A stretch of DNA of 64,000 bases. Origin: Phlebopus portentosus (taxonomy: Eukaryota > Basidiomycota > Agaricomycetes > Boletales > Boletinellaceae). The notes below the pieces were generated by a model. It saw only the letters and a program-made list of their open reading frames with translations. It was not told the DNA's origin and made no database searches. Below are positions 26,220 through 43,869 of this stretch, one piece after another. The stretch's first letter is position 1. Every line of letters begins with the position of its first letter. Both the position numbers and the translations under genes were made by a program. The stretch is from positions 868,001 to 932,000 of the forward strand of contig JAYXKI010000004.1 of NCBI GenBank assembly GCA_037892935.1. The letters run 5' to 3'.

Positions 26220-27825
26220 TGTTAGGACCAGTATTTTCGGACGAGGTGGTTAGTCCGAGCGTACCGGAACAAGTCCCTGCTTCCTCCTTCTGACAATGTA
26301 TAATTGGAGAGTAGAGTAGCGAAGGTTAGATGTACTACTAGAAAGCGAGCTATAGGCTCAAGCTTGACCCAGCAGTAGAGCAGAAGTTCAATCAAAGGGG
26401 TACAGTTATGATTGAAAGTACAAAATAATTTTGCTGAGGGACAACACCCCGCTCAGCTGGCGCCTTAAATAAAGTTTCTACTGAATACTACCGACTACCA
26501 AATACTACCGACCATGCCTCGCCATTGGTCAGGACAATGTGTTTCAGCTGGTGTCACTACTACTTTCTTAAGTCTGTAGTACCACTGACAACTCTGGTGG
26601 TGCTACCGAAACTCCTGGTTGCACCACCAACTACTTCCTTCCCTTTTAGGCAGGCCCTAATTTCCTTCCGTTCCGAAGAAGCTTTCCCCAGGCTTCTATC
26701 GATCTCCGTTCCTATCACATGTTAATCCTTAACGCCAATCCTCCCATGAGAGACTTCTTCCATGTGCCGTGACCTCGCTTCGCCGGCGCTCCGTTACTCC
26801 GGCCGAGCTTCTGCAGTTTAATCTTCCATCATGGGGCTGACCGTTATCTCGGGATTTGGGATCGGCAACCCCTGCCGATCATCGGAGATTAACCTTGGCG
26901 GCTGTGTAAATTTAGCAGACACCCTTCTGTGCCTAGCCGCGATATCGATGTTGGAGAATTGTAGTCCGGTACCCGACGTTAACCTGTATCTTCTTCCCAG
27001 GTGATTCGTCCCGCGCCATTCGTCGACTGTAATAACCCCTTCTTCCGATCGTTCCCATGCTTCTAGCATTCGATCCGTTGCTTCTTCGATAAGACTTTCG
27101 ACGTCCGATGGCGCCCTGTAATAGATTGGCCAATCGACTTCCACTGCAGTGTTTCGACACAAGGTCTGGTGACAATGCTGATTGATCCAAGCTCTCACGC
27201 CAACCTTCAGTGCATAGATATCCCTATCGCCGAGCCATACAGATACCTCGTGGTCGTATGCGCTCATTCCGCGGTTCGGTAATGGTTGGTCAAACGTTCG
27301 TTCTGAGGGTCCGGGTTTATGCCGAATCTTGACATCGGCTCCTTCCCTAGTTACTAAGCGCTCCACAAAGTTCTTGAGGAGCCACTCCGAAAGAACCCAA
27401 CTCCTTTGGTATGCCAAATAGCAGTTTGTACAGACCAGGCTTTCATGAACAAAGCGTCTGGTTGCACTATGTTGATATCGTCTCTTCTGCAGGAGTTCCA
27501 CGTATCTTGCGATGTTCCGTTCTTCCATGTCCATGTAGCTTCGCTCGGGTGGAGGAGTATGTCCAATATGCATTCCAGCTAGTCCTTGCTGTAAATCGTA
27601 TGGATCCTCCCTTTCGTTGCGTTCGTCCTCGTAATATCGTCGATCGGGTTCCTCTTGAATATATTCCACAGCGACCTCCCCAGGTCCTTGCTGTACTAGT
27701 GGGCGAGAATCGCCTCCACTATTCTGTCCTTGAAGCCTTTTGAAATGCTCTGGATTGGGCTGCATAATTCGGTGTGTAAAGCGTCTGATACCACGCCGCA
27801 TTGTATATCCACAATTTTCGTAACA
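26220..27825 (-). repeat. 3' LTR of the Ty3 element
   Basis: 1606 bp with TG..CA ends in coding orientation. A TATA-like TTTATTTAAGG (about 26466-26476, minus) gives a predicted start near 26440. That leaves U3 at about 1.38 kb and R-U5 at about 220 bp. U3 is mostly an open frame (26818-27801). An upstream polypurine tract abuts the inner edge. Confidence 0.95.
26818..27801 (-). CDS. LTR-embedded protein, copy in the 3' LTR (327 aa)
   Basis: Starts at ATG 25 nt inside the LTR and ends TAA at 26818. I do not recognise the family. Visible features are a basic N-terminus (MRRGIRRFTHRIMQ), an acidic linker (EEPDRRYYEDERNEREDP), a central CTNCYLAYQRSWVLSEWLL and a charged helical middle (VESLIEEATDRMLEAWERSEE). 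There is no signal peptide or membrane segment. It differs from the 5' LTR copy at three residues (about residues 74, 208 and 260), each from a CpG transition. In the genomic RNA it would be the last ORF, lying in 3' U3, so it would need its own promoter, splicing or another expression route (inference). This is the layout of the LTR-encoded sag gene of a murine retrovirus; no homology is implied. Confidence 0.75.
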   Translation of the reverse strand: MRRGIRRFTHRIMQPNPEHFKRLQGQNSGGDSRPLVQQGPGEVAVEYIQEEPDRRYYEDERNEREDPYDLQQGLAGMHIGHTPPPERSYMDMEERNIARYVELLQKRRYQHSATRRFVHESLVCTNCYLAYQRSWVLSEWLLKNFVERLVTREGADVKIRHKPGPSERTFDQPLPNRGMSAYDHEVSVWLGDRDIYALKVGVRAWINQHCHQTLCRNTAVEVDWPIYYRAPSDVESLIEEATDRMLEAWERSEEGVITVDEWRGTNHLGRRYRLTSGTGLQFSNIDIAARHRRVSAKFTQPPRLISDDRQGLPIPNPEITVSPMMED

Positions 27826-27836
27826 TTCCTCCCCTT
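27826..27836 (-). other. Polypurine tract of the Ty3 element
   Basis: On the minus strand AAGGGGAGGAA directly precedes the 3' LTR (TGTTACG). Such purine tracts prime plus-strand DNA synthesis. Confidence 0.8.
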
Positions 27837-28254
27837 AAGATCCACTTCGGACTGCAAGGAGAGTGTGGATCCCTTAATTGTGGTAGCCATAATCTTGCTG
27901 TTTCGTATTGTTGCTTCCCAGACCAAATCCTTCTTGTGTACTAGTGTCTCATTCCTCTTGTCTGGAATAACTGTAGCACTGTACATCCAGAGTCCTCCAC
28001 TCATTATTGAGCATGTGACTTGACGCTCAACCTGTTCTCAGAGAAAGGCAGCAGTCACGTGACACTTGCTCAATAACTCAAAGCCTCGCTGAGTGTCGGC
28101 TTCCAACATACTAGATGCTTCCCAACATGCTAGGAATAGTTTAACGACTTGTTCAGGTCAAATATGACCTCGATTAGTGTCGGTCCCAACTTACAAGGTA
28201 CGTCCCAGTACGCTTGGAATAGTTTAACGACTTGTTCAGGTCAAATATGCTTTC
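27837..28254 (-). other. 3' untranslated region between pol and the 3' LTR
   Basis: A short frame starting near 28004 (MSGGLWMYSATVIPDKRN) runs through the polypurine tract into the LTR and ends at 27696. Its reality is uncertain. The region also contains a tandem duplication (28093-28249). Confidence 0.4.
28093..28249. repeat. Tandem duplication, ~83-bp unit
   Basis: Two adjacent units both contain GTGTCGG and GGAATAGTTTAACGACTTG (28133 and 28216), spaced 83-84 bp. They lie just after the pol stop codon in the retrotransposon. Confidence 0.8.
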
Positions 28255-31200
28255 CTAAGCATCGCTGAACTCGCTATCCGAGGAGTCAGCCCAAAACCAA
28301 TCCTTATATGAAGGATCCCCTTTTTCTTCTAGCAGATCCCATCTGCGAACTGGCAGCGCTTTGTTTCGAGTGAATGGCCTTTTCGCGGCTCTCCAATGAC
28401 GCTTGTGCCATTCCGGATAACCGAAATCTCGCTGCTTGATACCTGTCTTGCTCTGGTATCTTCTTCTCCTAATTACCCTCTGAGCTATGGACTCTCCTAG
28501 TGCCGTCCTCAGGAACTCGTCATCTTCCTTCTTGATGTCGATTACTCTCTGCGTAGAGTCTATAATATCTGCGATCTTCTTTCTAGAGGGAAGATCTATC
28601 GTGTCTGGCCAACGATTCCTCTCGTGATACTCCTGCAATTTCTCTGGGGCATTGCGCAGCCCTTCTACAGGTTCCCAGGTATTCTCTTCCTCCGGGTAGC
28701 CGAGCCATTTAACCTGATATTCCCATTTTCCGTGCCTTTTCCTCATGTCCCGGATCGCTTCAACCTCATACTCGGTTTCTCCAGTGATAACTTCTGGTGG
28801 TGGTCTTGTTCTCTGTGCCAGATCTTTCCTTTCTCGATAGGGAATTAATAGTCCTGCATAGAACACCGGGTGGATCCTCAACTCTTTTGGGAGATCCAAC
28901 TCGTAGTTGACTAGCCCATGCTTTGCGATAACTTGATAAGGTCCCAGGTTTCTATCCCCTAGCTTCCTTGTGGGAACTAGCAAGGTTAGATTCCGACCAT
29001 CTAACATAACTTTATCGCCAATTTCGAATGACGGCATCGGGCCTCGGTGTCTATCCGCAAATCTCTTCATCACGTCTCGTGCCTTCTCCAGCGCCTTGGT
29101 TGCTTCTTCTTGATTCTTCTTTCGCATAGCCACATAGTCTTGGGTTCCTCGGATCGGAAGCTTGAATCCTAACTCCGGCTGAAATCCATACACCAATTCA
29201 AACGGCGTCTTGCCTGTACTGGAGTGAGAGCGACTGTTATAGGCGAATTCTGCCATAGGCAAATGTTCATCCCAGTCGTCCTGCTGCAAGCTGGAATAGC
29301 AACGTAACAGCTGTTCCATCTCTTGGTTTACTCGCTCTGTTTGACCATCTGTTTGTGGATGATACGCCGTACTAAGCTTCGTTTCGATCCCGAGGGCCTG
29401 GTTCACCTGTTCTGTAAACCAGCTAGCGAATTGAGGTCCCCTGTCGCTAATCACTGTCTTCGGAGTCCCGACCTTACTGTAGACATAATTGATCATTAAG
29501 TCCGCAGTGGTCTTCGAGTTTGCATTTACTGTAGTAGGTATAAAAGTTCCCATTTTAGAGAACCTGTCTACCACCACTAGTATCGCATTGTTTCCTTTGC
29601 CCGTTGTTGGAAGTCCGGTGACATAGTCCATAGTAATCTCGTCGTAGGGCCTTGTCGCTATCTGCAATGGTTGTAGCGGCGGTTGCGTCTTTCCTCGTCG
29701 CGCTTTCGTCCTCTGGCACACGTCGCATGTGCGCACATATTCTTCAACCCATTCCCTCATCTTCGGCCACCAAACTCTTCTTTCCAGTTTGTCTATAGTC
29801 TTCTGTAACCCCGGGTGTCCTGACGCCGGTGCGTCATGGCACTGTCGTACAATTTCCTTCTTAACTTCTTCATCTGGTGGGATAACCAATTTATCATCCT
29901 TCCACCAATATCCTTCTTCGAACGTTCCGATTGCTGGCTCCTTGGATCGTTCATAGGCGTCTCGAATCTTCTCTCCCAGTTCTGAACCCCCTGTAAGCTC
30001 AAATACCCGTACTGTGCGCATGGGCAGGTCCGATGTTCTGAACAATTGCGGAGGAAGTAGGACTTGTTCTGGCTGGTCCTCTTGGCCCTGTTCGTAGTCT
30101 GGCCTTCTTGATAATGCGTCCGCTCGTGAATTCTTGGTTCCAGGTCGATACTCGATTCGAAATCAAAATCTGCTGAGAAATGTCGCCCATCTTGCTTGGC
30201 GGCCACTTAGCTTCCTAGCTCCCATGAAATATCGAAGGTTCGCTTGGTCGCTAACCACTCGAATCTCATGTTTCGCTCCTTCCAGGTGGTGCCTCCAGTT
30301 GCTCAAGGCCTTGACAATCGCTAATAATTCCTTGTCCATTACTGGATAGTTATTCTCGGCATCTCGATAGGTGTTCGACCAATATCCAATGGGGTGCAAA
30401 ATTTCATCGTCCCCGAGCTGCGAGAGCACGGCTCCCATCGCAAAGTTTGACGCGTCGGTTTCCAGCACAAATTGCTTCTCGTGATCCGGTCGTACTAGCA
30501 TTGGCGCAGTGGTGAAAGCTTCCTTGAGTTTCCTAAAGCTTTCCTGTTGTCGTTCTCCCCAGGTAAATGTCTTCTTGCCAGACATAAGTTCCGTAAGTGG
30601 CCTAGCTATCTTGGCGAAGCCTTCGATAAATTTCCGGTAGAAGTTTGCAAAACCAATAAACTTTCGAATGTCTCGCTTGCTTGATAAATCCGGCCATTCT
30701 TGAACTGCCTTTACCTTGTAGGGATCCATCTGCATGCCCGACTGGTTAACCACAAATCCTAAATAGTCGAGTTCCTTCTTTCCAAAGTAGCACTTCTCTG
30801 GTTTGCAGAAGAAGTCTGCTTCCCTTAACCTGCGCAATACCTCTGCTAGCAGGTCCCAATGTTCCTGTTCCGTTTCCGCATAGACTATAATGTCGTCAAG
30901 ATAAATGAGTATGCCCTGCCCAATCATGTCCTGAAAGAGCTCGTTCATTGCACGTTGGAATACCGCAGGTGCATTCATTAATCCGAACTGCATTACCATC
31001 GGCTGATATACTCCCATGTGAGTCCTGAAGGCGGCATACTTTTCGTGCCCAGGGTGTATTCGAATGTTGTTATACCCACTTCGCAAATCCAGTGTAGAGA
31101 ACCATTTGGCATGTGCAAGATCGTCCGGGAGCATATGTAACAGAGGCATCGGTTGGTGGTCTGGAATGACCACCGCATTCAGCCCTCTATAGTCGATAAC

Positions 31201-33537
31201 AATTCTATACTCCGGCTTGCCATCCTTCCCTATTGTCTTTTTGGCTATGACAAATACTGGTGCACAAGTGTTCGCCTTTTCTTCAGCTGGTACTCGGTTT
31301 CCTACAACACGAATCCATCCCTTCTTCAGGTCCTCGCGAATCCATTCTTCTACCGCTCGCTTTTCAGCAGGAGCGAGTGGATATACCGGTCCAGGTTTCG
31401 GGAGCTCTGCTCCTGGTAGGAGCTCGATCTTCATGTCCCATTGTCCCGACTTCGGCAGCCGTTTGGCGGCGTCCTTGTCGAACCTATCCCTGAACTCCCA
31501 TATTTGTTTTGGAAGAATGTCTTCAAGGGATTTGTCGCCAGCAGAGCCTGCCATCCTTTCATCGAGTGCTTTCTCCTGCGCATATTTTTGAGCTATACTG
31601 TTATACTTGAGAAGGCGTTCTCTCCGAGATGCGACTTGTCGATGCTCTAGGCGGCGGATCCAGTGAGGAGGCTTGGGTGGCCTTCCTCTTCGAGAGGCGT
31701 CCTCCGCTTCCATCGAGGTAGCGGGCTTGTGCGATCCTAGGATACCCTTGAACTCCGTCTCAGATCCAGCTCTTCTCTCTAGCACTTTTCCTTCCACTTT
31801 GGGCGGCTGCATAACCGAGTCAACAGGCGTGTGCCATCGGCGCCTCTTCTGCCCCTGTGAGAGCCCCTGCTCCATCGCGGCATAATTCGAAATGAACCTG
31901 TTACCTTTACCATTTGTTTTCCCTGTCGGAGCAGGGCCCTGCATTTGGTCCTTAAACCGTGGTCTTCGCGGGCGCACTTGAGCTCCCGAAGCTAGCCTAC
32001 TTGATGATTGCGGCGTACTAACTTCGGCCCCGTGCCACTTGAGTGGGACTACCCTCCCTTTGGGGTGGACCACTTTCCTAGACACTAGCCTACCCTTGAA
32101 CGGCGTCTCATGTCTAGTCACTCCTCAGTCTCTCGTAGGAGGAGATCTCGCTAGGTGGCCGAACCTAGTACGCTTCGTAGCCTTAGTTCTACAGCGCTCC
32201 CGACCCGAAGTACTCCTGCTTGTACCTCTGCTTCGTGTGGTGAAGCTTACCGACTGCTTTTGCACTGCCAGGGTTGAGTCATTTTGGCCCTCGTGCACGG
32301 ATGGAGGAGTCCACTCCACCCTAATACTCCTTATAACAGGGTTCGATTCTGTACCACTTCCTCCACTCTTCTGTCGACGCATCTTGAGAGGATCAGGTGC
32401 GTAGTGTCCAGGCTTTCCTCCTTTAGGTGGTACACTAGGCTTCTTCCTTCTACTCGTATCAGATCCTTCTGCATCGATCGTCATTTGTGCTTGTATTTCT
32501 TCCCGCACTCTTGCTTGGTCTTCAGATGTTGTTGGTGTTCCCAGGCTTCCCTGAATTGCCATCAGCTGAAGACGCGCTGTATACATGCTGCCATATTCAT
32601 CGAGGAGTTCATTATGCTTGGCGCCCTTGTCCATTTCTCTGACCATGGTGCGGTATACTGCACCATCCGCATCCTCAACACTGTCAAAGTCGTGCCAGTT
32701 TTGCTCGTCCTTTGTTATTCGGCACTTGTCCCCGAACCAATAGAATCTCCATCTTCCTTCTTGTTTAGCGAAGGAGAGTTCTGGCGGCTTGTGCATGACT
32801 TCTTCGAACGTGACAAGCGGTGCTGCTGATTCCTTTTCTTTTCCTTTGTCTGGTGGTACGATCGTAGGTTCTTCTTCTATGTCTTCCTTCTCGGTTTCTT
32901 GTCCTGTTTCGATGTCGCTGTGGTAATAGACCCTAGTTTCCCAAGCTTCTTCCTTTTCATCATCGGCATCCCATTTAGGTGGAATGTAGTCTGGAATTCT
33001 TCGCCATCTTCTGCGTTTCTGGAGCTTCCTGGGGGCTAGGATTAGTTGTATGGAACGCAATCGTGCCGTTCCATTAAATGCAATTTCCTTCCCGCCTTTG
33101 CGAAGAATCCCCTTTGTCCAGTCGATAGTTGGCTTATGCTGTTCAAGCCAATCATTTCCTATGAGAAACTTGTCTTCGTGTGTATCCACCACTGCGATGT
33201 CCATTAAACCTCTTGTAATCCCTGTGTCCACTATTGCTCTGACGTTCCGAGTCCATCCACCATGATTAATCGATCCATCGGCATTCCGGATGGTATAATT
33301 ACCTTCTGCAGGCACTGTTCTCAGCCCTAGGCTCTGTACAACCGTGGGGCTAATAGTAGTGATTGCAGATCCGGAGTCAATCATAGCCGAGAGATTAACC
33401 TTTTTCTGTCCCTGAATGACGTCAATGGGTATAGTAGGATGGTTGGAGTTTGGTCTAGCGATAGTCCATCGGCGCTTTATCTCTTGTGTGTCCTTCGAGC
33501 CCTCGCCAGTGTCCGATGTTAACTGGCGGCCCTTCAA
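28255..33537 (-). pseudogene. pol: Ty3/chromovirus pol: protease, RT, RNase H, integrase, chromodomain
   Basis: One reading frame from about 33537 to 28255 encodes, in order: a protease with DSGSAITTIS (about 33370); RT with VIDYRGLNAV, FGLMNAPAVFQ and catalytic YLDDIIVY (about 30890); RNase H with ETDASNFAMGAVL; integrase with the zinc motif H-x-HPG..CDVCQ, D in MDYVTGLP, D in ISDRGPQF and E in QTERVNQEM; and a C-terminal chromodomain (YEVEAIRDMRKRHGKWEYQV, WLGYPEEENTWEP, about 28680-28760). Two in-frame TGA codons break it, 32125-32127 (between PR and RT) and 30163-30165 (between RNase H and integrase). Both would be Arg if CGA. The frame starts by overlapping the gag stop in another phase, so a frameshift or reinitiation is expected. 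Confidence 0.92.
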
Positions 33538-34556
33538 AAATCCTCCTCGGAATCCTCCTCGAGGGCATACGAAGCCCGTTCCTTATGCCTTGGTAACTTT
33601 GTTTTCTTGTCCAGTAGTTCTTCCATTTCAGAATCACTGCTAATCCCAACTTCCCGGCGTTTTAGGAAGCGGCCAGTCTTGCCAGATCGTCTCTTCTGCA
33701 CCCGTCTCTTGTAGTTGGTTCGGTGTCCACGGCTTCCCTGTGTGTCTCGCCCTACATTGTTGCAGTCCCGTGCAAAGTGACCTGTCTTGCCGCATGCCCA
33801 GCATATCCCGGCATCTCCTCGGGACCCCCTAGTAAAGCGCCTAGACATGTCGATGTCCATAGGCTCACCCAGAAACTCAGCTGGACGGCGAGCTTCTGGG
33901 GGCACTGGCGTGTACGATACCGCCTGCCCATCTTTAAACATAGGGGTGTACTTCCTATTGCTGCCTATCACCTTGGCAGCCATCAGACTGGCCTCCAGAT
34001 TACTAGCGTTCTCCTTCCATTGGTTAAGGTCCCATTCAGGGTGGTCTGTATTCGTAAGCAGGGCCTTTAGGATCGTTTGGTTGAGTCCTCTCTTGTACTC
34101 GTAAATTAGTGCCTGATGGTCGTAGTGCTTCGGCAGCCTCATCCTAATGTCGTCAAAGGCCCTGTTATACTGCTTCACCCATGCCCGTTCCTGATAAATC
34201 GTCCTAATATTTCGCTCGGCTTCTTCTTGAAGTCCAAAAATGCCGTTGTGGTTGAGCGCTAATTCGTTCCATAGATCATCTTCGTCGTCCCATCCACCCT
34301 TCTTGTCCATAACAAGCTTGCCATCCGCATCTCGCTTGTAGGTGGAGACTAATTGATTTCTATTCACGGCCCATTTGCCATTAACCCAAGTCTGAGCTTG
34401 ACCTCACAGACATTCCAAAATAATCTTAACCCTCTTGACTGGGTCGCTCGGATGTTTTTCATTCAACCGGCTGATCATTTGATTCTGGAAGTTCTCAAGC
34501 GACTCATAAGGGTTTCCCTTAAACAAGGGATACTTCATAATATCTTTGTTTGACAT
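33534..34556 (-). pseudogene. gag: Ty3 element gag with CCHC zinc knuckle
   Basis: The ATG at 34556 opens MSNKDIMKYPLFKGNPYES. A retrotransposon-gag capsid region follows (ENFQNQMISRL; QTWVNGKWAV; YNRAFDDIRMRLP). The zinc knuckle CWACGKTGHFARDC (about 33790) is C-x2-C-x4-H-x4-C. The acidic C-terminus ends at 33534 and overlaps the pol frame. A TGA at 34404-34406 lies in a conserved position (ECL-stop-GQAQTWV), where CGA would give Arg. The protein is of normal size for a fungal Ty3 gag. Confidence 0.85.
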
Positions 34557-34753
34557 AATGACCTAGACGAATTCAACCAACATTTTTATGAGTATCACCT
34601 TCATTCAGCGCATTATAATAATACATGGTTTAGTAGCTAAGTTATCCAGCGAGTACCACCTCCGCTTTCCAACTAGCCACCTTACCCTTCCTCCCCGGTC
34701 GGTTCTTGGGCGTCTTTCTTCCTCCTGGCAAGCTCCCAGCTCTAAACCAGGGC

Positions 34754-36661
34754 CTATCTCCTTTCTTCCCGAGCTTCGTATCGTTCCTCGCCGCTTTCGT
34801 GTTCCTCGCTTTCCTCTTCTGTCTCCCATTCGTCGTTCGCATCGAAGTACTCTTGATCCTCGCTGGTTGGCTCTTCTATGTTGTTACCTCGCACCCAAAC
34901 TACCATCGCCATGTTCGCTACCCCCTGCCTCGGTGGTCCCTCTCGTATGTCGAGAGAGTCCGATGGTATAGGGCAGCTGTTAGGACGAATGATAGGATCA
35001 TAGATATAATCAGAGTCTGGGGAGTACTCACTGACCGCCTGGAGCCTTGCTTCTCTCTCCTCAAGCTCAAGAGCACTTGGAGTAGGCAATCCTGGCGGCG
35101 AGTCCTGGTGCGGGTATTGAATGTGGTTCCTTTCGATGTAGTGGCCATTCCATCCCAGCCGTTGAATCGCTTCCTCGACGAGTTCTCCCTGCTCATTCCA
35201 CATGAGCTCCCGGATTCCCGTGCCATGACCCATTTCCACCGTGTTGTCCGCCTCCCATGCTTCCCCAGCATCGGGAGGCAGTCCCCATCCGTCGTTGGAT
35301 GGCCAGGGCTGTGGTGACTCGGGAATCACCTCCCTCAGCAGTTCTTCTGCTTGCTGGTCCAGGCTTCCGGGTTGCGTTTCTGTGGAGATGTAGTCCGGGA
35401 GATCTTCTTCAACTTCGATGCTTTCTTCGACTTCCTGTTCCTCTTGGGCGAGCGCTGTAGGCGCTACCAGCCCTCCTTCCGCAACTACCTCAGCGACATA
35501 GTTCCTCCCAACTTCTACTGCCTGCTGTCGCAACTGCAACGACGGTTGTCCTGTTCGAGTGTCCATTCCTCCTGGTTCCCTGCTCTGGCGAATGATCTCA
35601 ACCATCTGATCCACAAAGCGTTCACTTGCTGGGATCAGGTAGGGCATCTGGTCGTCGTCGGAGTCCGAGCTCACGCTTTCGAAGCGGCTAGCTAGACCTA
35701 GGCCTCTACCTTGCAGCGGGGAGTCAGGGCTCAACCTCGCCCCTCCTCGCCTAGCTCGCTGCGTCAGGTAGGATTGACGAAGCCTAATCGTTTGTTGGAT
35801 CCGACGAATGCCTTCCGTGATCGAGTACTGGGCCGCGAGTTCTTCCTCGGCATTGCTGATCCGGGCTCGAATAGCCTCAATCTGTTCGACCAGGTAGCTA
35901 GCCTGCGTGTGTAACTGCAGGAAGTCCGTACCAGTGAGCCGAATAATCTCTTGCTGGGAGTTGACCACTTGTTGAGCAAGGGCTGATTGACTGCCCTGAA
36001 TGGCCATTGTTACCGCTCCCAGAATACGAGCCTGCAGAATACCGAACGCGTAGTTGATCCGTACGTCTCGCTGTTCGCCTTCTCGCCTGAGGTTGGTGAT
36101 GACTGCCTCGGTGATCGCATCCCCGACATGTCCCTGAATATGCGCCAGAAACTCCCCCAGTGTCTGCCCTTCTACGGTAAGGTTCTCAGAGTATTGAGAG
36201 CCCATGTCGTAGAGTCGAGCGACAGTAGCTGTGAGAGTTCTGAGGGACCGATCAACGCTAGTAAGTCGATTGTCGAGGTCGATGACGGCGTGTCGCAGGG
36301 CGGAGACAACTTGGTTGGGTTGCCCGTCAGTACTGACCATTCGGTCCAAGCATCCGTGTAGACTGTCGAGTCGTTCGCTGATGCGTGCCAGAGCGGATTC
36401 CATACGTTCTCCAGGTCCGGGTTGAGGAACTGCCAGTCGTTGAGTTTGGAGTAGAAATCTCCGACCGGCACGACGGAATGGGGAACCTCTTTCGTTGTCT
36501 TGCCGTTCCATCCACGTCCATAGCGTTCCAAAGCCTCGAAGAAGGCTGATTCGACCTCGGAGTTGTTGAGCAATGACATATACCATGGAAGAAAACCAGA
36601 CGATGCAGAGTGTAACCCAGGGACTAGACCAACCAACTTGCCACAGTTCCATCGGTGACAT
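34754..36661 (-). CDS. Retrotransposon ORF2: unknown coiled-coil/acidic protein upstream of gag
   Basis: A 635-codon open frame; I recognise no family. The convincing part starts at an internal Met (MESALARISERLDSLHGCL, about 36402). Heptad-like coiled coil follows (VIDLDNRLTSVDRSLRTLTA; QASYLVEQIEAIRARISNAE). The C-terminal half is acidic and Pro/Ser-rich and ends in a Glu-rich tail. The N-terminal 85 codons include a hydrophobic stretch (WVTLCIVWFSSMVYVIA) but overlap the better-looking ORF1 in another phase, so they may be non-coding. No stops interrupt it, in contrast to gag and pol. It may be a structural or chaperone-like accessory protein (speculative). Confidence 0.6.
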   Translation of the reverse strand: MSPMELWQVGWSSPWVTLCIVWFSSMVYVIAQQLRGRISLLRGFGTLWTWMERQDNERGSPFRRAGRRFLLQTQRLAVPQPGPGERMESALARISERLDSLHGCLDRMVSTDGQPNQVVSALRHAVIDLDNRLTSVDRSLRTLTATVARLYDMGSQYSENLTVEGQTLGEFLAHIQGHVGDAITEAVITNLRREGEQRDVRINYAFGILQARILGAVTMAIQGSQSALAQQVVNSQQEIIRLTGTDFLQLHTQASYLVEQIEAIRARISNAEEELAAQYSITEGIRRIQQTIRLRQSYLTQRARRGGARLSPDSPLQGRGLGLASRFESVSSDSDDDQMPYLIPASERFVDQMVEIIRQSREPGGMDTRTGQPSLQLRQQAVEVGRNYVAEVVAEGGLVAPTALAQEEQEVEESIEVEEDLPDYISTETQPGSLDQQAEELLREVIPESPQPWPSNDGWGLPPDAGEAWEADNTVEMGHGTGIRELMWNEQGELVEEAIQRLGWNGHYIERNHIQYPHQDSPPGLPTPSALELEEREARLQAVSEYSPDSDYIYDPIIRPNSCPIPSDSLDIREGPPRQGVANMAMVVWVRGNNIEEPTSEDQEYFDANDEWETEEESEEHESGEERYEAREERR

Positions 36662-37089
36662 AGTTGTTTCGCAGTAGTATAGTTGCCTTGATAAACTTGT
36701 AAAAGGACTTGATGGAGGAAATGAGAATGTTCGAGTAGGGTGTATTCGAACGCTTTATATTCCTGACACAGAGCGAGTAGTTCTTCTTCAACCGGCGTCG
36801 GACCTCTGAGTGCTTCCCAATTAAAACTGTGTCCGTTCAATAGGTTGTCCGCGTGTACAAGCAAGAACTTCCTTCCAACTCTTTCGTGTCTTTCGGTGTT
36901 GATTCGAAGCTCCAGGGCGGATAGTATAACCGACCGGTAGGGTTCTAGGATAGGGGTGTTTGAGTGCTTCTTACCTCGGTAGAAGTTTATCGTGCTAAAC
37001 GCCGAATTGACTTCTTCTTCGAATGTATGGAGCGCTCTAACAAAACTCCGATGGAGTGTGTAAGCCTGCTTTAGCCGTCGACGATACGC
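36172..37089 (-). CDS. Retrotransposon ORF1: unknown protein, open frame lacking an early ATG
   Basis: The frame is open from a TAA at 37090-37092 to its stop at 36172 (about 305 codons). It has protein-like composition (ALHTFEEEVNSAFSTINFYR; ADNLLNGHSFNWEALRG; ALERYGRGWNGK). No in-frame ATG occurs in the first half. The leader upstream contains a good intron (donor GTAAGT near 37155, acceptor AATTAG near 37110) but no ATG either. So the start is unknown, lost, or non-AUG. The end overlaps ORF2 in another phase by at least 230 nt. I recognise no family. Confidence 0.45.
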   Translation of the reverse strand, partial: AYRRRLKQAYTLHRSFVRALHTFEEEVNSAFSTINFYRGKKHSNTPILEPYRSVILSALELRINTERHERVGRKFLLVHADNLLNGHSFNWEALRGPTPVEEELLALCQEYKAFEYTLLEHSHFLHQVLLQVYQGNYTTAKQLCHRWNCGKLVGLVPGLHSASSGFLPWYMSLLNNSEVESAFFEALERYGRGWNGKTTKEVPHSVVPVGDFYSKLNDWQFLNPDLENVWNPLWHASANDSTVYTDAWTEWSVLTGNPTKLSPPCDTPSSTSTIDLLALIGPSELSQLLSLDSTTWALNTLRTLP

Positions 37090-37226
37090 TTATCGGTGAT
37101 CAGCTAATTGTATTAACAGGCACAGAAGAAACCCTCCCAGGGCAGAGCAATACTTACTGATCGATAGTGGGTATTGCACTATGAAACAGCAAGATTGATT
37201 ATCCCAGGATTGGAGCAAAATTATAA

Positions 37227-38832
37227 TGTTAGGACCAGTATTTTCGGACGAGGTGGTTAGTCCGAGCGTACCGGAACAAGTCCCTGCTTCCTCCTTCTGA
37301 CAATGTATAATTGGAGAGTAGAGTAGCGAAGGTTAGATGTACTACTAGAAAGCAAGCTATAGGCTCAAGCTTGACCCAGCAGTAGAGCAGAAGTTCAATC
37401 AAAGGGGTACAGTTATGATTGAAAGTACAAAATAATTTTGCTGAGGGACAACACCCCGCTCAGCTGGCGCCTTAAATAAAGTTTCTACTGAATACTACCG
37501 ACTACCAAATACTACCGACCATGCCTCGCCATTGGTCAGGACAATGTGTTTCAGCTGGTGTCACTACTACTTTCTTAAGTCTGTAGTACCACTGACAACT
37601 CTGGTGGTGCTACCGAAACTCCTGGTTGCACCACCAACTACTTCCTTCCCTTTTAGGCAGGCCCTAATTTCCTTCCGTTCCGAAGAAGCTTTCCCCAGGC
37701 TTCTATCGATCTCCGTTCCTATCACATGTTAATCCTTAACGCCAATCCTCCCACGAGAGACTTCTTCCATGTGCCGCGACCTCGCTTCGCCGGCGCTCCG
37801 TTACTCCGGCCGAGCTTCTGCAGTTTAATCTTCCATCATGGGGCTGACCGTTATCTCGGGATTTGGGATCGGCAACCCCTGCCGATCATCGGAGATTAAC
37901 CTTGGCGGCTGTGTAAATTTAGCAGACACCCTTCTGTGCCTAGCCGCGATATCGATGTTGGAGAATTGTAGTCCGGTACCCGACGTTAACCTGTATCTTC
38001 TTCCCAGGTGATTCGTCCCGCACCATTCGTCGACTGTAATAACCCCTTCTTCCGATCGTTCCCATGCTTCTAGCATTCGATCCGTTGCTTCTTCGATAAG
38101 ACTTTCGACGTCCGATGGCGCCCTGTAATAGATTGGCCAATCGACTTCCACTGCAGTGTTTCGACACAAGGTCTGGTGACGATGCTGATTGATCCAAGCT
38201 CTCACGCCAACCTTCAGTGCATAGATATCCCTATCGCCGAGCCATACAGATACCTCGTGGTCGTATGCGCTCATTCCGCGGTTCGGTAATGGTTGGTCAA
38301 ACGTTCGTTCTGAGGGTCCGGGTTTATGCCGAATCTTGACATCGGCTCCTTCCCTAGTTACTAAGCGCTCCACAAAGTTCTTGAGGAGCCACTCCGAAAG
38401 AACCCAACTCCTTTGGTATGCCAAATAGCAGTTTGTACAGACCAGGCTTTCATGAACAAAGCGTCTGGTTGCACTATGTTGATATCGTCTCTTCTGCAGG
38501 AGTTCCACGTATCTTGCGATGTTCCGTTCTTCCATGTCCATGTAGCTTCGCTCGGGTGGAGGAGTATGTCCAATATGCATTCCAGCTAGTCCTTGCTGTA
38601 AATCGTATGGATCCTCCCTTTCGTCGCGTTCGTCCTCGTAATATCGTCGATCGGGTTCCTCTTGAATATATTCCACAGCGACCTCCCCAGGTCCTTGCTG
38701 TACTAGTGGGCGAGAATCGCCTCCACTATTCTGTCCTTGAAGCCTTTTGAAATGCTCTGGATTGGGCTGCATAATTCGGTGTGTAAAGCGTCTGATACCA
38801 CGCCGCATTGTATATCCACAATTTTCGTAACA
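37227..38832 (-). repeat. 5' LTR of the Ty3 element
   Basis: 1606 bp, differing from the 3' LTR at six sites that I can find, all CpG transitions. Predicted transcription start near 37447. The R-U5 and leader lack ATG. The sequence after the LTR (minus: TTATAATTTTGCTCC) does not begin with the TGG expected of a tRNA primer-binding site. Confidence 0.95.
37825..38808 (-). CDS. LTR-embedded protein, copy in the 5' LTR (327 aa)
   Basis: Identical in layout to the 26818-27801 copy, with three residue differences. The ATG is 25 nt inside the LTR. In the 5' LTR it lies upstream of the predicted transcription start of the element, so expression from here would need a promoter outside or at the LTR edge. 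Family unknown. Confidence 0.75.
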   Translation of the reverse strand: MRRGIRRFTHRIMQPNPEHFKRLQGQNSGGDSRPLVQQGPGEVAVEYIQEEPDRRYYEDERDEREDPYDLQQGLAGMHIGHTPPPERSYMDMEERNIARYVELLQKRRYQHSATRRFVHESLVCTNCYLAYQRSWVLSEWLLKNFVERLVTREGADVKIRHKPGPSERTFDQPLPNRGMSAYDHEVSVWLGDRDIYALKVGVRAWINQHRHQTLCRNTAVEVDWPIYYRAPSDVESLIEEATDRMLEAWERSEEGVITVDEWCGTNHLGRRYRLTSGTGLQFSNIDIAARHRRVSAKFTQPPRLISDDRQGLPIPNPEITVSPMMED

Positions 38833-41499: not shown

Positions 41500-43093
41500 A
41501 GTGTATTTTCGGACGAGGTGGTTAGTCCGAGCGTACCGGAACAAGTCCCTGCTTCCTCCTTCTGACAATGTACGATTGGAGAGTAGAGTAGCGAAGGTTA
41601 GATGTACTACTAAGAAGCGAGCTATAGGCTCAAGCTTGACCCAGCAGTAGAGCAGAGGTTCAATCAAAGGGGTACAGTTATGATTGAGAGTACAAAATAA
41701 TTTTGCTGAGGGACAACACCCCGCTCAGCTGGCGCCTTAAATAAAGTTTCTACTGAATACTACCAACTACCAAATACTACCGACCCTGCCTCTCCATTGG
41801 TTAATACAATGTGTTTCAGCTGGTTTCACCACCACTGTCTTGAGTCGGTGGTACCACTGACAACTCTGGTGGCACTACCGAAACTCCTGGTAGCACCACC
41901 GACTACTTCCTTCCCAATTAGGCAGGCCCTAATCTACCTCCATTCCGAAGAAGCTTTCCCCAGGCTTCTATCGATCTCTGTTCCTATCACATGTTAATCT
42001 TTAACGCCAATCCTCCCACGAGAGACTTCTTCCATATGCCGCGATCTTGCTTCGCCGGCGCTCCGTTACTCCGGCCGAGCTTCTGCCGTTAGTCTTCCAT
42101 CATGGGGCTGACCGTTATCTCAGGATTCGGGATCGGCAACTCCTGCCGATCATCGGGGATCATCCTTGGTGGCTGTGTAAATTTAGCAGACACCCTTCTG
42201 TGCCTAGCCGCGATATCGATGTCGGAGAATTGTAGTCCAGTACCCGACGTTAACCTGTATCTTCTTCCCAGGTGATTCGTCTCGCGCCATTCGTCGACTG
42301 TAATAACCCCTTCTTCCGATCGTTCCCATGCTTCTAGCATCCGATCCGTTGCTTCTTCGATAAGACTTTCGACGTCCGATGGCGCACTGTAATAGATTGG
42401 CCAATCGACTTCCACTGCAGTGTTTCGACACAAGGTCTGGTGACGATGCTGATTGATCCAAGCTCTCACGCCAACCTTCAGTGCATAGATATCCCTGTCG
42501 CTGAGCCATACAGATACCTCGTGATCGTATGCGCTCATTCCGCGGTTCGGCAATGGTTGGTCAAATGTTTGTTCTGAGGGTCCGGGTTTATGCCGAATCC
42601 TGACATCGGCCCCTTCCCTAGTTACTAAGCGCTCCACGAAGTTCTTGAGGAGCCACTCCGAAAGAACCCAACTCCTTTGGTATGCCAAATAGCAGTTTGT
42701 ACAAACCAGGCTTTCATGAACAAAGCATCTGGTTGCACTATGCCGATATCGTCTCTTCTGCAGAAGTTCCACGTATCTTGCGATGTTCCAGTCTTCCATT
42801 TGCACGTAGCTTCGCTCGGGTGGAGGAGTATGTCCAATGTGCATTCCAGCTAGTCCTTGCTGTAAATCGTATGGGTCCTCCCTTTCGTCGCGTTCGTCCT
42901 CGTAATATCGTCGATCGGGTTCCTCTTGAATATATTCCACAGCGACCTCCCCAGGTCCTTGCTGTACTGGGCGAGAATCGCCTCCACTATTCTGTCCTTG
43001 AAGCCTTTCGAAATGCTCTTGATTAGGCTGCATAATTCGGTGTGTAAAGTGTCTGATACCGCGCCGCATTGTATATCCACAATTTTTGTAACA
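41489..43093 (-). repeat. Solo LTR of the same Ty3 family
   Basis: About 1605 bp, clearly diverged from the two flanking LTRs of the complete element. The right edge is canonical (..TAACA in plus reading). The left edge reads TGAGTTAGG instead of TGTTAGG and merges with the adjacent direct repeat. No 5-bp target duplication is found. It keeps an intact LTR reading frame. Confidence 0.85.
42089..43069 (-). CDS. LTR-embedded protein, copy in the solo LTR (326 aa)
   Basis: Open from ATG 43069 to the stop at 42089. Relative to the other copies it lacks exactly one codon (near residue 34) and has roughly 18 substitutions, yet no stop or frameshift. Preserved reading after divergence points to selection before this copy was fixed. 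Function unknown. An in-frame extension upstream comes from DNA outside the LTR. Confidence 0.7.
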   Translation of the reverse strand: MRRGIRHFTHRIMQPNQEHFERLQGQNSGGDSRPVQQGPGEVAVEYIQEEPDRRYYEDERDEREDPYDLQQGLAGMHIGHTPPPERSYVQMEDWNIARYVELLQKRRYRHSATRCFVHESLVCTNCYLAYQRSWVLSEWLLKNFVERLVTREGADVRIRHKPGPSEQTFDQPLPNRGMSAYDHEVSVWLSDRDIYALKVGVRAWINQHRHQTLCRNTAVEVDWPIYYSAPSDVESLIEEATDRMLEAWERSEEGVITVDEWRETNHLGRRYRLTSGTGLQFSDIDIAARHRRVSAKFTQPPRMIPDDRQELPIPNPEITVSPMMED

Positions 43094-43249: not shown

Positions 43250-43800
43250 GGAACCTACCCCCAAACGTCCGCCGCACTACATCGTACCTGTCGGGCGGCC
43301 TCTATTCGACCTCGGCGGCCCTCCGGCGACACAGGCCTTCCATTGTATCCCCCCTCGGCGTCTTTTCCAGTTACTCACCGCACGTTGTCCCTTATATTCA
43401 TCGTATACGGTCCCTACCTTTTATTTACCCAGTTTACGCTACCGCGGCGGATTTGTACGAGCTCCCTCGTCCCCGGCGGCCCCCTATTCGACCTCGGCGG
43501 CCCTCCGGCAACCCAGGCCTCCTTTCCTATTCCCCTTCAGCGCCCTTTTCATCTGCTGGCCGCACGTTGCCCCTTATATTCATCGTATACGGTCTCTACC
43601 TTTTATTTATCCAGTTTATGCTACCGCGGCAGATTTGCACAAGCTCCCTCGTCCCCGGCGGCCCCCTATTCGACCTCGGCGGCCCTCCGGCGACACAGGC
43701 CTTCCATTGTATTCCCCCTCGGCGTCTTTTTCACCTACTCGCCGCACGTTACGCCTCATATTCGTCATATACAGTTCCTAGCTTCACCCTACTGAGATTG
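43250..43800. repeat. 182-bp tandem repeat, three units
   Basis: The motif TATTCGACCTCGGCGGCCC starts at 43303, 43485 and 43667, exactly 182 bp apart. Units share CTTATATTCATCGTATACGG and CCGCACGTT. The third unit degenerates towards 43800. Two plus-strand frames through it only reflect the repeat. Confidence 0.9.
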
Positions 43801-43869
43801 CGCTACTCCGGCGGACTCCTGTGACCTCCCCTTCGATCCGGCGGACCTACTAGAGCATTCCTTTCATAC

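Follow-up and report, generated by a model that had tools for sequence, protein, structure and literature searches.

Are the LTRs of a fungal Ty3 element, which are usually treated as non-coding, the site of a gene kept by selection, and if so, how is that gene expressed and what does it encode? Genes in such a position can be missed or listed as host orphans, as in the case of a hypothetical protein of Sanghuangporus sanghuang. The question is raised by a 64,000-nt stretch of a Phlebopus portentosus contig (the window), in which a long reading frame occupies the greater part of each of three LTRs.

The reading frame and its setting

The window contains one complete element and one lone LTR of the same family, with the following features:

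26220–38832, minus strand: complete Ty3/chromovirus element of 12.6 kb, flanked by the 5-bp duplication CTCCT
37227–38832, minus strand: 5′ LTR of 1606 bp (LTR comparison)
37825–38808, minus strand: LTR ORF in the 5′ LTR, 327 aa, 3 residues different (ORF reading)
34754–36661, minus strand: ORF1, 635 aa, upstream of gag, opened by the first AUG after a 782-nt AUG-free leader
33534–34310, minus strand: gag fragment with a zinc knuckle (Pfam)
28255–33384, minus strand: pol, comprising protease, RT-RNase H and integrase-chromodomain, with two internal stops (ORF reading, Pfam)
28133–28244, minus strand: tandem unit in two copies, between pol and the 3′ LTR (sequence repeats)
27826–27835, minus strand: polypurine tract AGGGGAGGAA, before the 3′ LTR (flank comparison)
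26220–27825, minus strand: 3′ LTR of 1606 bp (LTR comparison)
26818–27801, minus strand: LTR ORF in the 3′ LTR, 327 aa, in U3 (ORF reading; predicted RNA start)
42089–43069, minus strand: LTR ORF in the lone LTR, 326 aa (ORF reading)

The LTR begins with TGTTA and ends with TAACA. The TG..CA ends, the 5-bp target duplication and the polypurine tract are all present in the element, and its domain order of protease, RT-RNase H, integrase and chromodomain, established from Pfam matches and ORF reading, is that of the Ty3/chromovirus group. ORF1 has no Pfam match at cut-off, and 29 of 43 matches covering at least 622 of its residues are without a stop. It resembles ORF0 of Retrosat2, RIRE3 and RIRE8 in position only, as an extra ORF upstream of gag-pol; ORF0 lies outside the LTR and has no bearing on the LTR gene (PMC3485330). 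A 182-bp unit occurs three times in tandem beside the lone LTR, at 43292–43837, with copies two and three being 84% and 77% identical to the first.

The initial annotation had placed three frames at these coordinates, each starting 25 nt into the LTR, and both statements hold. All three frames lie on the minus strand, the plus strand holding stops, and the ATG is base 25 of the 1606-bp LTR, such that the frame occupies LTR bases 25–1008 (327 codons). Compared with the two other copies, the lone one has lost a codon and carries 20 and 19 substitutions, close to the approximately 18 changes claimed. Two of the three stops reported for gag and pol are the internal stops of pol, at frame codons 488 and 1142; the third may be among the stops upstream of the gag fragment.

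A protein search of the 38.4-Mb genome, in which 122 of 242 candidates were scored, together with eight further places gave 130 fetched LTR loci, all of which align to the LTR; these searches are lower bounds. The frame is kept from the ATG over at least 320 codons in 77 of the 130 copies. Apart from four truncated copies, a frameshifting indel inside the frame occurs in two of 130 (L103, near the end of the frame, and L135); a further flag for frameshift, raised in 91 copies, almost always reflects a 1-nt difference in the stop codon, with the stop staying in place. Stops are present in 49 copies; among their 88 stop codons, 50 are TGA at positions with CGA in the window copy, a pattern that fits CpG decay. 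Indels outside the ORF are mostly 1–2 bp, and those inside it respect the frame. The only widely shared indel in the ORF is a 9-bp deletion, carried by 14 copies and by none of the 77 intact ones. From the 130 copies, the four truncated ones were dropped in the variant count and five more in the indel count; five were dropped in the divergence-bin analysis of pN/pS and eight in the comparison based on the 9-bp deletion. One locus with a very long open frame was set aside, most likely reflecting masked bases (2001 of its 4001 fetched bases are N).

The position of the frame relative to the RNA start is indicated by three features in and next to the 5′ LTR:

37470–37478, minus strand: TATA-like TATTTAAGG, about 35 nt before the predicted RNA start (labelled from sequence)
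37432–37442, minus strand: LTR bases 1391–1401, AGCAAAATTAT, pairing with the leader; predicted start of R (complementarity)
37214–37224, minus strand: putative primer-binding site for self-priming, 2 nt beyond the end of the 5′ LTR (complementarity)

The leader sequence ATAATTTTGCT, two bases after the 5′ LTR, is complementary over 11 nt to LTR bases 1391–1401, where we infer the 5′ end of the RNA to lie. This pairing is presumably the Tf1-type self-priming arrangement; in the Tf1 group the leader pairs with the RNA start, as predicted here, and Tf1 is not known to carry an LTR gene. Self-priming is mentioned in a survey of fungal elements, a figure legend of which names an ‘additional open reading frame’ whose place is not given in the accessible text (PMC2864245). 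A stretch of 16 bases comprising the pairing site and its surroundings shows no change in 118 of 130 copies, and the leader of the window copy, which runs for 782 nt from the predicted RNA start to the ORF1 ATG, contains no ATG, compared with 11.5 expected from single-base shuffles. An RNA start near LTR base 1390 is thus well supported. U3 would then correspond to approximately bases 1–1390, which places the ORF wholly within U3, ahead of the promoter, in agreement with the initial assignment of the frame to U3. It is likewise a well-supported prediction that the genomic RNA carries the LTR ORF at its 3′ end alone.

Selection on the frame

Past selection for the protein had been proposed from the three window copies, and the wider comparison bears this out: pN/pS is well below 1 in copy comparisons, and when pairs drawn from 125 copies are sorted by divergence into 18 bins, every bin falls between 0.12 and 0.30. 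For the 12 copies that carry the 9-bp deletion against the 110 that lack it, pN/pS is 0.227 in the frame. The same comparison gives 1.01–1.39 in four wrong frames and 0.59–0.89 in the non-coding LTR, and 0.29 in the antisense frame, whose third positions are shared with the ORF. The value falls to 0.075 for codons outside CpG/TpG/CpA contexts. Among the same 122 copies, variability is 0.108 at third codon positions versus 0.039 and 0.031 at the others, a ratio of about three. Codons 1–12 are weakly constrained (0.49), and for this reason translation may start at M13, where the S. sanghuang protein and one S. vaninii protein begin.

The ratio of non-synonymous to synonymous changes depends on how widely a variant is shared. 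Among 126 copies, N/S of variant codons is 0.41 for variants with more than 10 carriers, 1.10 for those with 4–10, 1.13 for those with 2–3 and 1.66 for singletons; the neutral expectation, taken from the spectrum of the non-coding LTR, is 2.43. The 33 LTR pairs matched by their target duplications allow elements to be sorted by age. Young copies are seldom disabled, both LTR frames being intact in 15 of 17 elements with at most five LTR differences, compared with 5 of 16 older ones. Because shared variants are mostly synonymous, singletons less so, and young elements mostly intact, the copies point to purifying selection during replication, which we regard as shown, and the later decay fits a relaxation after insertion.

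Within the 33 matched pairs N:S is 163:106 (1.54, versus 2.43 expected), and pooled pN/pS is 0.31 over 31 LTR pairs taken by distance alone. The pattern after insertion is relaxed, not clearly neutral. Twenty-two of the matched pairs are about 11 kb apart and 11 are farther apart, the latter taken as nested insertions; one pair, L033/L032, is without the usual internal flank. Some pairs about 11 kb apart resemble mixtures of insertions, recombinants or converted copies, and all 33 are counted in the 163:106. Without L034/L104 and L108/L100, the two 11-kb pairs with the highest numbers of differences, N:S would be 118:61.

Synonymous ORF sites (LTR columns 25–1008) vary more than the non-coding LTR, by up to about fourfold (125 copies). 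Either the non-coding LTR is strongly constrained or the ORF part has been exchanged by recombination.

LTR frames in related families

An integrase search identified other chromovirus families in the same genome at approximately 51% and 44–45% identity (families 2 and 3; the element described above belongs to family 1), and for both of these a single copy was fetched at its 3′ end. The family 2 LTR (integrase 51% identical) spans 1504 bp, as delimited by copies matching that part alone. It contains an ORF that starts 56 nt inside the LTR and extends over 247 codons, including one stop in the fetched copy. For the second part of this ORF, 20 of 28 full matches are without a stop, and 12 of those lie in an unbroken frame of 251–254 codons. 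The ORF is collinear with that of family 1, matching residues 103–171 of P0005 (BLASTP E = 2e-05) and 198–277 of P0001 (E = 5e-04) at about 23% identity. Shuffle tests give p = 5e-06 and 1e-03 for the two parts with the better of two family 1 partners, and 2.8e-04 and 0.012 with the other, and none of nine control comparisons against ORF1, the gag fragment and the protease ORF reaches p < 0.05. Profile comparison of the two families is weak, with low hhalign probabilities and with 2 and 3 of 150 column shuffles reaching the score. On these alignments we consider it shown that family 2 carries a homologous LTR gene in the same place as family 1. Three outcomes had been named beforehand as speaking against a selected gene, namely dN/dS near 1, disabled young copies and absence from related elements; none of them was observed, the last being answered by family 2.

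The family 3 LTR (integrase 44%) begins near L153:2423 and contains a 213-aa ORF 397 nt inside, many copies of which are decayed (150 matches). One S. baumii protein matches the fetched piece at 98% identity and is itself 68–80% identical to proteins of S. vaninii, S. weigelae and S. baumii. Shuffle and profile tests detect no significant similarity between the sequences of families 1 and 3, and that between families 2 and 3 is at best weak (E = 0.011; p = 0.009). The predicted order of secondary structure is nevertheless common to families 1 and 3 (helix, four strands, helix, two strands), as seen in separate models of low confidence (pLDDT 37.5 and 42.7), with a score that 3 of 3000 permuted orders reach. 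Both proteins also have a CxxC at the first helix and an HxxC before the fourth strand, with a shuffle chance of 0.0015 for a pattern that was picked after seeing the data. For homology between the LTR ORFs of families 1 and 3, the models and the pattern are no more than suggestive. An ORF of 332 aa without a Pfam match at cut-off also lies in the family 3 piece, after pol and ahead of the 3′ LTR (L153:388–1386, plus strand).

Expression, product and known systems

The reading that we favour, and to which we give an even chance of being right as a whole, is that of an LTR gene under selection in this chromovirus family, with a homologue in family 2, located in U3, expressed from a spliced subgenomic mRNA and encoding an intracellular accessory factor. 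The features that bear on expression are as follows:

37152–37157, minus strand: splice-donor-like GTAAGT in the 5′ leader (48 of 49 leaders found)
27852–27863, minus strand: splice-acceptor-like CTCTCCTTGCAG, 26 nt before the 3′ LTR (flank comparison)
28055–28062, no strand assigned: single remaining TCACGTGA box of the window copy (pattern scan)

The leader donor GTAAGT would be joined to the acceptor-like site that precedes the 3′ LTR by 26 nt, following the plan that retroviruses use for late genes. An out-of-frame AUG at the junction of tract and LTR opens a 35-codon uORF, after which the LTR ORF would be the first long ORF of the spliced mRNA. GTAAGT occurs about 69 nt after the 5′ LTR in 48 of the 49 leaders found, and CTTGCAG 26 nt before the 3′ LTR in all 50 flanks found; recent spread accounts for part of this uniformity within the family. 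When the interval from pol to the LTR is compared between families 1 and 2, the best local match is TCTCCTTNNAGTCCGA, at the acceptor-like place, together with the polypurine tract. By score this match is weak, 35 of 1000 shuffles being as high, and without the tract the acceptor-like motif is not beyond chance (369 of 1000), which weakens the argument for splicing; what speaks for the acceptor motif is the equal distance alone, since in each family it starts precisely 37 nt ahead of the LTR, an equality noted afterwards. The motif could instead serve in plus-strand priming.

An alternative route to the same product, which we consider unlikely but worth weighing, is a short mRNA that starts just before the 3′ LTR from a promoter of its own, made of regularly spaced TCACRTGA boxes between pol and the LTR. 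Ten other fetched junctions carry four such boxes (7 of 10) or three (the other 3), mostly 43–44 nt apart and 183–315 nt before the LTR, a number reached by none of 1000 shuffles of each junction; such arrays resemble a promoter or an enhancer. The window copy, however, has a single box, which 27 of 1000 shuffles reach; no TATA-like site is seen by eye between the boxes and the LTR; and the one TCACRTGA box that a pattern scan finds in the fetched family 2 piece is inside its LTR. In L142–L151 and at 28055–28244 of the window, tandem units with a 29-bp core accompany the TCACRTGA array between pol and the 3′ LTR, and the numbers of units and boxes vary.

The frame might also be a host gene that was captured and is carried along without benefit to the element, a reading that we disfavour as improbable. 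In shuffle tests, which covered ORF1, the gag fragment and the protease ORF, the LTR ORF does resemble none of the three, but purifying selection extends across many copying rounds, a homologue is present in the family 2 LTR, and each of the 130 fetched matches aligns to the LTR, with none resembling a separate host gene (the searches being lower bounds). That the sequence is kept for an RNA or DNA function such as an enhancer or packaging signal, with the open frame as a by-product, is largely refuted: the non-coding LTR is itself conserved, but variation in the ORF falls at third positions, indels keep the frame inside the ORF and not outside it, and the protein is recognisable in S. vaninii at 62–64% identity.

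The LTR ORF product has a mass of 38.4 kDa, a pI of 6.5 and 12% arginine, and is hydrophilic overall. As in the initial annotation, no family match was obtained: Pfam, PHROGs and PDB sequences gave none at cut-off, the only Pfam hit being a sub-threshold DUF (E = 0.044), and Foldseek searches with the low-confidence models returned nothing below E = 0.001 and matched no known fold. We give almost no credence to an envelope-like or superantigen-like surface protein, which would suit the placement after pol and the LTR location shared with sag of mouse mammary tumour virus (MMTV), the product of which is a membrane protein; the product here is hydrophilic, with no membrane segment (top 19-residue hydropathy 0.47) and no Pfam match at cut-off. 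The favoured intracellular accessory factor is a guess from position, selection and composition: the protein, hydrophilic and rich in arginine and with a candidate CxxC/HxxxC metal site, would work in the cell on behalf of the element, its likeliest target, again a guess, being the RNA of the element or host silencing.

A gene in U3 is already known from MMTV sag (PMC9412291), the ORF of which, like the LTR ORF here as placed by the predicted RNA start, is wholly within U3. The analogy had been drawn at the outset, and it holds for the layout and fails for the kind of protein: sag belongs to a vertebrate retrovirus and its product is presented to T cells, whereas the present frame belongs to a fungal Ty3 element and its product has neither a membrane segment nor a sequence match. 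The additional ORFs of plant LTR retrotransposons are conserved extra genes beside gag-pol, often annotated as of unknown role, and are described as internal, mostly between pol and the 3′ LTR, rather than inside the LTR (PMC7264820). Those of envelope-like type combine a transmembrane segment with an internal position, and the LTR ORF has neither. Among fungal chromodomain LTR elements, crapaud of Podospora offers a comparison in that its LTR variation is in U3; it differs from the present element in that two ORFs are described for it in the available text, neither in the LTR (PMC10787394). The initial annotation knew of no fungal Ty3 equivalent, and no fungal or Ty3 LTR gene appeared among the open-licence papers listed.

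A wider reading, which we hold tentatively and would sooner doubt than accept, is that a fungal Ty3 lineage independently took the plan of complex retroviruses, with an old, fast-evolving family of U3 accessory genes common to three or more chromovirus families, whose mRNA would be made by splicing the leader to a site just ahead of the 3′ LTR and whose product would be needed for replication or for evasion of host silencing. If true, a selected LTR gene across retrotransposon families would be a stable arrangement and not a retroviral oddity. It would also offer a way, open to testing, in which simple retrotransposons could acquire additional regulated genes, as well as a candidate family of counter-defence proteins in mushrooms.

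In the protein database no relatives were found beyond Sanghuangporus by a search limited to relatives that share exact 5-letter words. The nearest proteins to the family 1 LTR ORF are those of S. sanghuang (96% identical) and S. vaninii (62–64%), identities by which the host would be placed in Sanghuangporus or near it, and the S. sanghuang relative is a hypothetical protein that stands for 26 member sequences.
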